DNA from: an uncultured Actinomycetes bacterium
Lineage (GTDB): Bacteria > Actinomycetota > Coriobacteriia > Coriobacteriales > RUG033
Length of the DNA: 34,295 nt
Assembly (NCBI GenBank): GCA_900314665.1
Contig: OMWF01000216.1
Coordinates: 1-34,295 of the forward strand
Direction of reading: 5' to 3'
Of the stretch, positions 3,954 through 28,366 are shown piece by piece. Position 1 is the stretch's first letter. Each line of letters opens with the position of its first letter. A program made the translations under genes and the position numbers. The notes beneath the pieces were generated by a model that was given only the letters and a program-made list of their open reading frames with translations, was not told the DNA's origin and made no database searches.

Positions 3954-4029
3954 TGGTGGAGATGATGGGATTCGAACCCACGACCTCTGCCTTGCGAAGG
4001 CAGCGCTCTCCCAGCTGAGCCACATCCCC
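3954..4029 (-). tRNA. tRNA-Ala (anticodon CGC)
   Basis: A 76-base cloverleaf read on the minus strand. The acceptor stem GGGGATG pairs with CATCTCC and contains the G3:U70 wobble that identifies alanine tRNAs. The anticodon loop is TTCGCAA (anticodon CGC, codon GCG). The T-loop is GTTCGAATC, and CCA is encoded at 3954-3956. A frame crossing it in the coding direction of the next gene produces a spurious N-terminal extension of that gene. Confidence 0.97.
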
Positions 4030-8941: not shown

Positions 8942-9459
8942 AGCGTCCGAGAAGGGCGACCGAGCCGCATGCGAGGGATGCCACCAGCAGGTCAGGATTG
9001 AAATCGGGTGCACGCTGCTCCCAGGACACATCACCCGTTACCGTTCTCCCTGAAACTTCGCTTCATACGAGCCGTACCTCGGGAACCATATTCATATTAA
9101 TGCATATTTACTTGTCAATATGCAGATATTTGCATCAAGTTATAAGCTTGCAGTCTGAAGGCCTCAAAAAAGCAGAGATACCTCGAAATACCGGGTATGC
9201 ATTATGTCCAAGTAAGCTCTCTGGTCCTGAGAGCTAGGCACGACCTGGGATTTCATGATGTTTGTCCACTTGAAACTGTCTGCATAACGCCTGCAGAGGG
9301 GACATTTTGAGGTATCTCTGCATTTTCAGAGGCATCTCTGATCAAAGTTGAAGTTTGTATCCAGATTTATGCATATTAACATCAGAATATGCATGTTTCT
9401 GTAATCAGTCTTTGCCCAAGCCCCGTTGTGGCCCAGAGAGGGTGCCGCCCGCCCCACGC
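8942..9459. other. Gene-free AT-rich spacer containing symmetric element copy 1
   Basis: Between the bioY operator and the 3' end of the cardiolipin synthase gene I see no gene. Base composition drops sharply to AT-rich from about 9080 to 9400, which coincides with the repeat element at 9101-9393. Confidence 0.6.
9101..9393. repeat. Symmetric 293-bp repeat element, copy 1
   Basis: Each end carries a 24-bp palindrome, TGCATATT-8 bases-AATATGCA, at 9101-9124 and 9370-9393. Moving inward there are 47 and 48 bases. Then come inverted arms: GCAGAGATACCTCGAAAT starting at 9172 on the left, and its near-complement ending at 9321 on the right. The left arm continues with 21 bases (9181-9201, beginning CCTCGAAATACC) that recur exactly in copy 2. 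The centre (about 9202-9300) is unrelated between copies and contains a small AGCTCTC/GAGAGCT hairpin. There is no transposase and no convincing frame inside. It looks like a non-autonomous (MITE-like) or regulatory repeat. Confidence 0.7.
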
Positions 9460-16027: not shown

Positions 16028-16218
16028 ATGATGTCCGTCTGCTCAAATATGTATTTTATAGGTAGTTTCCTGTATAAACGTTATCTGTATATCTCAATTC
16101 AAGCTTTTGTGCACAATTTTAGTCCCTGCCTAGATAACGGGAATATATGGCATAAAAGCTAACATTTTTTCTGAACTTGTCCTTCTCAGGTGCGACACCC
16201 GATGCCTAGCATGGGATG

Positions 16219-16360
16219 TGTCAACGGGGACGATTCTGTTTGACAACTTTTCGGAGCGGCGCCAGGTGGGGTGCCATCGATGTTGTTATGGAGAACCATC
16301 CCTGTTGACATCCCATTGACACCACCGATGTTGCCATAGAGAACCGTCCCCGTTGACACG
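16219..16360. repeat. Repeat family 2: two direct copies at 48-bp offset plus one inverted copy
   Basis: A motif CGATGTTG..AT-G-GAGAACC-TCCC-GTTGACA occurs at 16278-16310 and 16326-16358 (offset 48), about 28 of 33 bases matching. A reverse-complement core TGTCAACGGGGACG lies at 16219-16232, followed by TTTGACAAC. Inverted copies flanking a direct pair resemble the REP/REPIN arrays mobilised by IS200-like RAYT transposases, but no such gene is in the window. Confidence 0.7.
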
Positions 16361-17903: not shown

Positions 17904-18248
17904 GGCGCGACGGCCCGCCGCGATATGCGCGGTCCGGGGTGAGGCTCCGCCCTCGCCCAGGCTCGAATCCCGCTCAGACCCTTCTCGTCACCCTGCCCGG
18001 CATGCCAGCGCCCCTTCCGCTCCAACTTTTGACGGCTTTGGCCAAAGCTAGTCGCTCGGAAGATACTATGGGCAGATACTCCGCAGGTAAACGCGGCGCC
18101 ATCGGGCGCAGTTCCGCACCAGGAGCCTCTGAGCTGGCCAAAGCCGTCAAAAGTTGGAGCAAAGCCCCGGCAGAACATCGTTATCCGGTCAAAACCGTCA
18201 AAAGTTGGAGCTGCGAGCGATGACGCGAAGGGCTCTCCGCATAAAGGG
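17904..18248. other. Gene-free spacer with repeat family 3
   Basis: No gene is visible between the convergent radical SAM and activase genes before the activase terminator. Frames through it consist only of translated repeats. It holds the three repeat copies at 18019-18211. Confidence 0.6.
18019..18211. repeat. Repeat family 3: one inverted and two direct copies
   Basis: The motif GGCCAAAGCCGTCAAAAG followed by TTGGAGC occurs at 18136-18160; a variant with CAAAACCGTCAAAAG is at 18190-18211. The conserved CCGTCAAAAGTTGGAGC cores are offset by exactly 51 bases (18144 and 18195). A perfect reverse complement of the first lies at 18019-18043. The inverted copies are 92 bases apart and could form a long stem. 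There are no coding features. Confidence 0.75.
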
Positions 18249-23874: not shown

Positions 23875-24106
23875 AAGTGTTGGTTTTCTTAGGGTAGCGG
23901 TGGCAGCGGGACGTCCGGTCCGGTCCAAACGCACGTCCCAAGCCCGCACTCCCGGCCCAACCTGGCCTGCGCCTGTGGCAGACCGAGGTTCGCGCACCGG
24001 CAGCCAACACACTCCCGTGCCTCCGGCAACCTGGCCCCCGCCGGCGACCGGCCATGGATCCGCCCCACTGTGCAGGCGCCGGACCCCTCGCCCCGCTCCC
24101 TCTGTC

Positions 24107-24362
24107 GCAAATGTAACAAAACGCGAAGATTCTGAAGCTCGGAGGCTCAGCGCTGCTGCAAATGTAACAAAACGCGAAGATTTTCAGCTCCGGACACCGT
24201 GCGGAGGGGCCCGCGAGGGCCTCCGCCGATGCGAATCCTGGGCTTTTGCTGGAGGCGCCCCCGCGTGGCAGGGTCCCGGGCGGTGAAAACTTCGCGTTTT
24301 GTTACATTTGCAGCACGGGGACGGCACCACGGCCCCAAAACTTCGCGTTTTGTTACATTTGC
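24107..24362. repeat. Repeat family 4: two direct and two inverted copies, pairs at 51-bp offset
   Basis: GCAAATGTAACAAAACGCGA then AGATT (25 bases) is present identically at 24107-24131 and 24158-24182. The reverse complement, differing at one base, is at 24287-24311 and 24338-24362. Both pairs have an offset of exactly 51 bases, and the pairs face each other across 104 bases, so the whole 256-bp block is a dyad of dyads. There is no coding sequence and no transposase. Confidence 0.85.
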
Positions 24363-24848
24363 ATCAATGCCCGCTGCCCCGCCGGCCGGGTCGCGAGGCC
24401 TCTGCGCGGGCAGCGTATGGGTTTCGAGGTTTGCGGGGTTCGGTTCCTCGCTCGGACGGGCGACGTGCGAGACCTGCGCCTGCGGGGGGCCTTTCGCCCA
24501 GACGACACCTTCAATCAGGCGAAAGCCTCACAGCGCACGGGGTTGATTCCATCTCCAAAGAACCCGTCGCCGCCAACCGCTGAAATCTGGATCGATAAGC
24601 TATGGGGGGCACCCCCGGTGGCAACATGGCCTGCACCCCAGCAGCCGTTGCAGGCCGCCGCGCCTCTGGCTGGCGCGAGCCCGCACGCATTCCTCCAAAC
24701 TCACGCCCCGCCGTCCGCCCCGGCAACCGCACCGGGGCCGTCTAGCAGCGGCTCGCGCGTGTATCATGAAGCCTTAACCAAACATATCCAGCACCCGCAA
24801 GAGAATCTGTTCCGTCGCGGGCGAGCCTGTTACCAGTGAGGAGTCACC

Positions 24849-26297: not shown

Positions 26298-26355
26298 GCC
26301 TGCGGATGCGGTTCGGACCGGCCTGCGGATGCCGGACGGACCGGCCTGCGGATGC
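26298..26355. repeat. 23-bp tandem repeat, about 2.5 copies
   Basis: GCCTGCGGATGC recurs at 26298-26309, 26321-26332 and 26344-26355, an exact 23-base period. The second and third copies are also preceded by GGACCG. The block is purely intergenic. Confidence 0.8.
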
Positions 26356-26436: not shown

Positions 26437-26718
26437 TGCATATCCAGGCTTGTATATGCATGTATCTGCATGCATCTCGCTATCCGTCCCTGCGACGCTT
26501 CCAAAAAAGAAGAGAAGCCTCGAAATACCGGGTATGCAAACGGCATTTTTGGGTACACATCAGAAAAACCCCAGGTAACGTTGAGCGCAAAGGAAGCAGG
26601 TAGCCTCCATAAGCACACTGCATAACGGTATTTCGAGGCTTCTCTTCTTTTTTTGGGCATTCAAAATACCGTTTTGCTTTATTAATCATAGTTCAGTATA
26701 TAATCACATTTTTATGCA
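26437..26718. repeat. Symmetric 282-bp repeat element, copy 2
   Basis: The left-end palindrome TGCATATC-8 bases-TATATGCA (26437-26460) is followed after 48 bases by arm GAAGAGAAGCCTCGAAATAC (starting 26509). It includes the 21 bases at 26518-26538 that are identical to copy 1. The right arm (26625-26652) is its near-perfect reverse complement, so arms of about 35 bases pair with one A/T length difference. After 47 bases a degraded end palindrome sits at 26695-26718 with the outer half TATGCA kept. The middle 80 bases are unrelated to copy 1. The spacing conservation between copies is the strongest evidence that this is one element. Confidence 0.72.
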
Positions 26719-26820
26719 TTATATTGCATATGTAAGCTCCACGTTGGCCACGCCTGAGGGGATGGCGGCTCAGGCGACCGCGGCTGATGGGCAATCCCCG
26801 ACCGCACATGGGAGGCAAGC

Positions 26821-26905
26821 GCGGTTGCCGAGCGGGGATGCGCTTCCGCGAAGCTGCCGAGCGGAGGTGCACCTCCACCGCGGTTGCCGAGCCGGGCTGC
26901 GCTCC
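26821..26905. repeat. GC-rich imperfect tandem repeat of about 30 bp
   Basis: Three units begin at 26821, 26848 and 26880, each with a TGCCGAGC core followed by GG-rich then TGC-CTCC-like sequence. The middle unit contains the perfect 14-base palindrome GGAGGTGCACCTCC (26863-26876). It abuts the 3' end of the amidohydrolase homologue and may contribute to its termination. Confidence 0.55.
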
Positions 26906-28176: not shown

Positions 28177-28187
28177 TTGAGGCGTGA

Positions 28188-28320
28188 TCTGTTCAGGGCG
28201 GGGTGCGATTCCCCACCGGTGGTGATGGGCCTTCGGGCCACGAGTCCACGAGCTCGAGTAACGCGGGGCAGAATCGGTGCGAACCCGATACCGACGGTAT
28301 AGTCCGGATGAAAGAACAGA
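28188..28320 (+). ncRNA. FMN riboswitch (RFN element)
   Basis: The closing stem P1 is TCTGTTC (28188-28194) with GAACAGA (28314-28320). The invariant blocks are present in order: AGGGCGGGGTG...TTCCCCACCGG, a variable hairpin with GGGCC-TTCG-GGCC, GCGGGG, and ACCGACGGTATAGTCCGGAT followed by GAAAGAAC. FMN binding normally turns the downstream gene off. Its position before ribU identifies that gene as riboflavin uptake, and the terminator at 28367-28400 is the likely expression platform. Confidence 0.97.
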
Positions 28321-28366
28321 GCATGTCGCTTGAGACCTCGCTGGTCGAGCTCATAGAGATGTGCCG

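Follow-up and report, generated by a model that had tools for sequence, protein, structure and literature searches.

Miniature inverted-arm elements with a common centre and a linked DUF559-like gene in Coriobacteriales, a possible counterpart of REPIN/RAYT systems

In E. coli, BIME-1/RIP elements consist of inverted REPs around an IHF site and prefer the 3′ ends of genes, and short derivatives of IS50 show a roughly helical periodicity, since both ends have to be brought together over a short loop. REPIN/RAYT pairs are the best-studied long-lived miniature repeats tied to a single-copy enzyme, and what sustains such pairs is an open question. REPINs are REP doublets forming hairpins, for which RAYT-driven movement in trans has been proposed (PMC3116915). 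Two further systems are close in parts: the ends of IS21, which are bipartite with two direct-repeat binding sites per end about 23 bp apart (PMC10122671), and the EDxHD homing endonucleases, e.g., I-Bth0305I, whose dimers work on DNA targets of almost 60 bp (PMC3943268). In the literature we found no paper on the repeats described below, whether by host group or by sequence, and nothing linking DUF559 with inverted repeats; the element population is apparently undescribed so far.

The window, i.e., the whole stretch of 34,295 bp from an uncultured member of the Coriobacteriales (the source genome) that was analysed, had initially been annotated with two copies of a symmetric element. The 24-bp palindromes (confirmed in the sequence at 9101-9124, 9370-9393 and 26437-26460), the 21 bases identical between the copies (9181-9201 and 26518-26538) and the mirrored arms were all present. 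An inverted-repeat scan brought the total in the window to five elements: two of family A, one of family C, and cousins E and F.

9101..9393, minus strand (orientation of the centre): family A element, copy 1 (sequence and covariance model)
9101..9124, no strand: copy 1, outer 24-bp palindrome TGCATATT-8-AATATGCA (sequence)
9167..9201, plus strand: copy 1, inner arm, holding the 21 bases common to copy 2
9240..9253, minus strand: copy 1, conserved centre AAATCCCAGGTCGT
9301..9326, minus strand: copy 1, inner arm, inverted
9370..9393, no strand: copy 1, second outer 24-bp palindrome (sequence)
26437..26735, plus strand (orientation of the centre): family A element, copy 2
26437..26460, no strand: copy 2, outer palindrome TGCATATC-8-TATATGCA (sequence)
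26503..26538, plus strand: copy 2, inner arm
26565..26574, plus strand: copy 2, conserved centre AAAACCCCAG
26618..26653, minus strand: copy 2, inner arm, inverted
24103..24366, minus strand: family C element, four sites of ~28 bp at 24103, 24154, 24286 and 24337
24236-24246, minus strand: family C element, centre AAAAGCCCAGG
18019..18211, minus strand: family E cousin, 51-bp direct-repeat spacing like family C (inverted-repeat scan)
16218..16359, no strand: family F cousin, inverted arms GTGTCAACGGGGACG..., without the CCCAG centre (inverted-repeat scan)

The right outer site of copy 2 is degenerate and lies about 15 bp past the end first annotated for this copy, and 28 bp of this copy's inner arm (26503-26530) are perfectly complementary to 26626-26653. 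As had been claimed, the gene context is tandem for copy 1 (a BioY-family gene and a PLD/cardiolipin-synthase-like gene) and convergent for copy 2 (DUF711 and amidohydrolase genes). In the family C element the outer and inner sites are 51 bp apart, with 147 bp between matched 15-mers. The centre of the family E cousin differs (TACCTGCGG, 18081-18089 on the minus strand); further family E copies were seen at L165, L163 and L305 (13836-14002 and ~15530), some copies being nested within elements of families C and D and a near-identical pair flanking a DUF559-like gene. Repeats of family F with GGGGACGGTTCTC-like arms, again without the CCCAG centre, were also seen at L313:9966-10114 and L318:3710-3808, and resemble repeats common in Firmicutes. 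The window also holds short GC-rich tandem repeats (units of 22-29 bp) on either side of copy 2 (26300-26345 and 26820-26900), an FMN riboswitch (28185-28323) upstream of a gene for an ECF transporter substrate-specific component, and a tRNA at 3957-4029 on the minus strand.

The initial annotation described the centres of the two copies as unrelated, but both share a motif (AAATCCCAGG at 9244-9253 on the minus strand and AAAACCCCAG on the plus strand), which had been missed because the cores of the two copies lie in opposite orientation. Copies oriented by this motif all align, and a consensus taken from 75 non-identical centres of many genomes reads C-[AG]-N-AAAA-[CG]-CCCAG-[GT]-T-[CG]-G-C, an oriented, non-palindromic site of about 18 bp that is the most conserved part of the elements. 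Among these 75 centres no flanking column pair behaved as a conserved hairpin, and because consistent flanking pairing was lacking the centre looks like a linear DNA site.

Further copies were sought in the source genome, a draft of 2.27 Mb. A search for the 21-mer with up to 3 mismatches returned 14 sites, in comparison to none with a reversed control, and a covariance model (A1) built from 12 oriented copies identified about 23 strong family A copies, a census that is incomplete; given these counts, the likeness of the loci is not a chance product of low-complexity AT content. Several extra matches of the model had the same centre and spacing with different arms. The arms of families B, C and D (GTKACATYTGCRACA) were found at 85 sites, arranged as four-site arrays, vs. 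none in controls, and within 404 kb of the source genome there were 30 long inverted repeats, nearly all belonging to a few such families, vs. one in shuffled sequence. The C-family copies are nearly identical to each other, and a family E cousin is nested in a family C element with no clear duplication seen there. Copies were enriched between convergent genes and scarce in divergent spacers, their centre lies on either strand relative to the genes, and many of them stand at contig ends. Among the candidate identities set aside were a known structured RNA, as Rfam gave no match to the elements at gathering or permissive thresholds, and a phage or plasmid origin, as no matching elements were found in phage and plasmid sequences and none of 39 exact centre matches in viral contigs had flanking inverted arms.

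The same centre recurs with arms that differ in each genome across families of the Coriobacteriales (Eggerthella, Olsenella, Collinsella). An exact 15-mer of the centre (AAAANCCCAGKTSGC) occurred in 35 of 101 Coriobacteriales genomes at about 80 sites, far above the reversed pattern, some of the centre matches within the order not being elements. In a set of 297 genomes across the phylum the 15-mer was near chance outside the order, except in one actinobacterium (G305, loci L467-L471) with eight near-identical 90-bp elements that carry the same centre and flanking arms; no linked nuclease gene was found close to them. Two other arrangements were observed. In G005 and G038 about ten palindromes per genome, CTGGGGTTTT-NN-AAAACCCCAG, hold the centre motifs head to head, possibly a different arrangement of the centre site, and in genomes of different families (L084, L089 and L106, near position 1500) the centre is found in a long conserved intergenic region without long inverted arms.

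The arms are 25-30 bp long and often doubled at 51 bp. Those of the source genome read AGAGATACCTCGAAATACCG in family A, with A-tract/T-tract, and TGTCGCAAATGTAAC plus a variable half in families B-D. Eggerthella arms are without outer T-tracts; E. lenta has its own arm, TATGCACGATT, as does Eggerthella G095, TATGAACGATT, the latter genome holding three arm families (GTGGCAAAATCGGGTTTTTGGCA, TGGCAGAGATCGCACGATATGAACGATTTT and GGGCGCAAAACGGCACCCATGACAATTT). Spacing is rigid, with cores of 150-152, 162 or 173 bp in family A and distances of 146-147, 136-138 or 126-128 bp in families B-D, and 71-74 and once 84 bp in Eggerthella family b; the earlier remark that distances are kept where the sequence is not thus holds, in steps of 10-11 bp. 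When shared lengths were counted as single events, six independent-looking spacing shifts remained, each close to a multiple of 10.5 bp (P ~0.001 vs. random indels of 3-25 bp), and this stepping points to a helical phasing of protein-bound DNA. The two arms of an element are also more alike than arms of different elements (identity 0.916 vs. 0.766; 0 of 5000 shuffles), an excess that is absent within the recent family C alone, and either selection for pairing or quasi-palindrome correction can produce such matching.

One gene family recurs beside elements. In E. lenta two elements (L432) enclose a 310-codon gene (L432:3910-4839) whose DUF559 match is weak but above the cut-off, as it is weak in most family members, and relatives of this gene were found at no more than a handful of loci in all the sequence examined. 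The gene also lies between two elements in G095 (L346, 728 kb), in three species of the Olsenella/Tractidigestivibacter clade and on contig C119 of the source genome, where the two elements surrounding it are near-identical; it lies 45-100 bp from one element in G095 (L341, 2.76 Mb) and on source contig C240, and about 550 bp from one on source contig C147. Because most of these pairs come from loci fetched on account of an element, three loci were picked by the gene alone. At the first, in G095 (794 kb), a canonical element ends up 44 bp ahead of the start codon. The other two are in C. aerofaciens: at L474 an inverted repeat of 209 bp that lacks the canonical centre follows the gene at a distance of 39 bp, and at L473 no element of this kind is present. 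Among 622 ORF families near elements, the DUF559-like family recurred most (6 genes vs. 4 for the next, a large transporter-like family) in a test that was rerun, as an adjustment after the first result, without a codon filter that had dropped several nuclease genes. The putative catalytic residues (E, D and an E...H motif) are invariant in 11 proteins, and a search with the nuclease profile reached PDB 3r3p (‘Mobile intron protein’) at an E value of 0.0012. We take this entry to be I-Bth0305I. The linked protein, which has a large N-terminal region without a match, resembles EDxHD/Vsr homing endonucleases and is a putative nuclease. An AlphaFold model of the Olsenella protein was set aside as support for the fold because of its pLDDT of 32, and no copy of the gene turned up in phages.

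Comparisons between relatives were made at several loci. One element stands at the same place in G059, which we take very likely to be E. lenta DSM 2243, and in G095, with an identical centre in the same orientation and with both arms changed (...TATGAACGATTTT to ...TGCACGATTT); the letter concerned is genome-specific, being A in 37 of 37 matches in G095 and C in 11 of 11 in G059. Another element of E. lenta is lacking at the corresponding spacer of two relatives, but in E. lenta it sits within about 440 bp of further DNA that cannot be aligned. The initial annotation had proposed a comparison of strains for empty sites and target duplications: inspection by eye gave no consistent target-site duplication, and no simple empty site was found. 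Downstream of DUF711 an element is common to Tractidigestivibacter scatoligenes and Olsenella sp. kh2p3, and in the MAG RUG11916 the core at this locus is inverted relative to these two relatives, a flip seen once and between species. Two elements of bacterium OL-1 (‘Jeddahella massiliensis’) appear to have recombined with each other, with loss of the gene that lay between them. The early suggestion of a recombination cassette has limited support, from one orthologous pair with the core inverted between the arms and one locus with a lost gene.

The element families, their geometry, the conserved centre, the genome-specific arms and the gene association are all directly observed; the best reading, with about an even chance in our judgement, is a Coriobacteriales-wide, REPIN-like population of miniature elements in which a DUF559-like, Vsr-type nuclease takes RAYT's place. 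In each element inverted, protein-site-like arms flank the asymmetric centre, and often a side holds two sites at a distance of 51 bp; we propose that the DUF559-like protein or a lineage-specific paralogue would bind these arms and pair both ends across a short DNA loop, which would account for the spacing steps of about 10.5 bp. The centre would probably bind a conserved host factor, e.g., a DNA-bending protein, bending the loop so that the ends meet, while the nuclease would nick or cleave DNA and elements would be copied to new intergenic places. The target length of EDxHD dimers fits such large symmetric sites. Each family's paralogue would act on its arms in trans, and the elements could thus persist as populations. 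The reading first offered, of a non-autonomous mobile element, agrees with the many dispersed copies, the rigid spacing and the linked nuclease-gene family, from which we infer mobility; the linked nuclease probably spreads or maintains the elements. More tentatively, and at somewhat less than even chances, a Vsr/EDxHD-type nuclease copies and maintains the elements in trans, with an arm specificity that diverges per paralogue and a host-factor site at the centre that is constant over the order, as a new selfish or domesticated system and an independent counterpart of REPIN/RAYT.

Several other explanations were weighed. That the elements are fixed regulatory or architectural binding sites of the DUF559-like protein, drifting with its specificity and not mobile, is unlikely but accords with the orthologous Eggerthella element in which both arms changed alike, the genome-specific letter on every matched copy and the rigid helical phasing; copy number and places that differ between relatives, the family E cousin nested in family C and the near-identical pair around the C119 gene are easier explained by copying. 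A pair of operators forming a loop, as initially suggested, is unsupported as the main function because the genes next to the copies are many and unrelated and few copies fall in divergent promoter regions. Ordinary MITEs, with a parental DDE transposase that has been lost or missed and the nuclease gene as a chance neighbour or passenger, would have the nearly identical C-family copies, the nested insertions and the two direct-repeat sites per end ~23 bp apart, like IS21-type ends (PMC10122671). We consider them distinctly improbable, since one centre across families with unrelated ends is not predicted by this explanation, target duplication was not found, and no wide arm pair around a transposase was seen among 85 B/C/D sites in the draft of the source genome or 37 family b sites of G095; an IS21-derived MITE in particular was rejected, as neither the source genome nor G095 has a true IstB-type helper.

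The remaining two explanations take the arms as hairpins or as recombination sites. RNA elements or bidirectional intrinsic terminators, i.e., long A/T-tract hairpins between convergent genes, would suit the convergent enrichment and divergent scarcity, the A-tract/T-tract arms of family A and the strong folding energies, but are very unlikely given a linear centre that forms no consistent hairpin and lies on either strand relative to genes, spacing shifts by helical turns, Eggerthella arms lacking outer T-tracts and the absence of an Rfam match. Phase-variable invertons, in which a recombinase would flip the core at the arms, are the most improbable of all: the RUG11916 inversion and the arms that match within an element speak for them, but a single flip was seen, which passive hairpin-loop flipping also explains, Eggerthella orthologues share their orientation, and many copies lie between convergent genes, where inverting a promoter would have little effect. 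If the REPIN-like reading with a nuclease in RAYT's place is true, there would be a second miniature-repeat/enzyme system, with an unrelated enzyme and in culturable gut species, which would make the question of persistence testable, and part of the DUF559 family would gain a role. The arm specificity shifts genome-wide and the core does not, so that the coevolution of a DNA-binding enzyme with its sites would be recorded in nature, and such repeats probably fragment draft assemblies of these bacteria.

Compared with the described systems, the elements share with BIME-1/RIP a pair of inverted arms with a site between them to which a bending protein of the host could bind, but the sequences are unrelated, there is no RAYT, the centre is not the IHF consensus and the spacing is rigid over several helical turns. 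The bipartite ends with direct-repeat sites about 23 bp apart recall IS21, whereas the elements are ~100-300 bp long without a transposase or IstB and conserve the centre instead of the ends. The linked protein is like EDxHD homing endonucleases such as I-Bth0305I in a weak profile match and a common acidic/His motif, but has the large unmatched N-terminal region, and its gene sits between non-coding symmetric elements and not in an intron. With REPIN/RAYT systems the elements have in common that they are inverted doublets of fixed length and spacing, dispersed in many copies between genes, with compensatory changes in the arms and several families per genome, and that each family is tied to a gene flanked by its sequence. 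REPINs in the strict sense were rejected because RAYT (PF01797) is absent from the source genome (94% complete), as it is from G059/E. lenta, G095 having one. None of the arms is a known REP sequence. In contrast to REPIN/RAYT, the repeat-flanked gene encodes a DUF559-like, EDxHD/Vsr-like putative nuclease instead of a RAYT, the arms are 25-30 bp and often doubled, and an asymmetric centre is common to families and genera.
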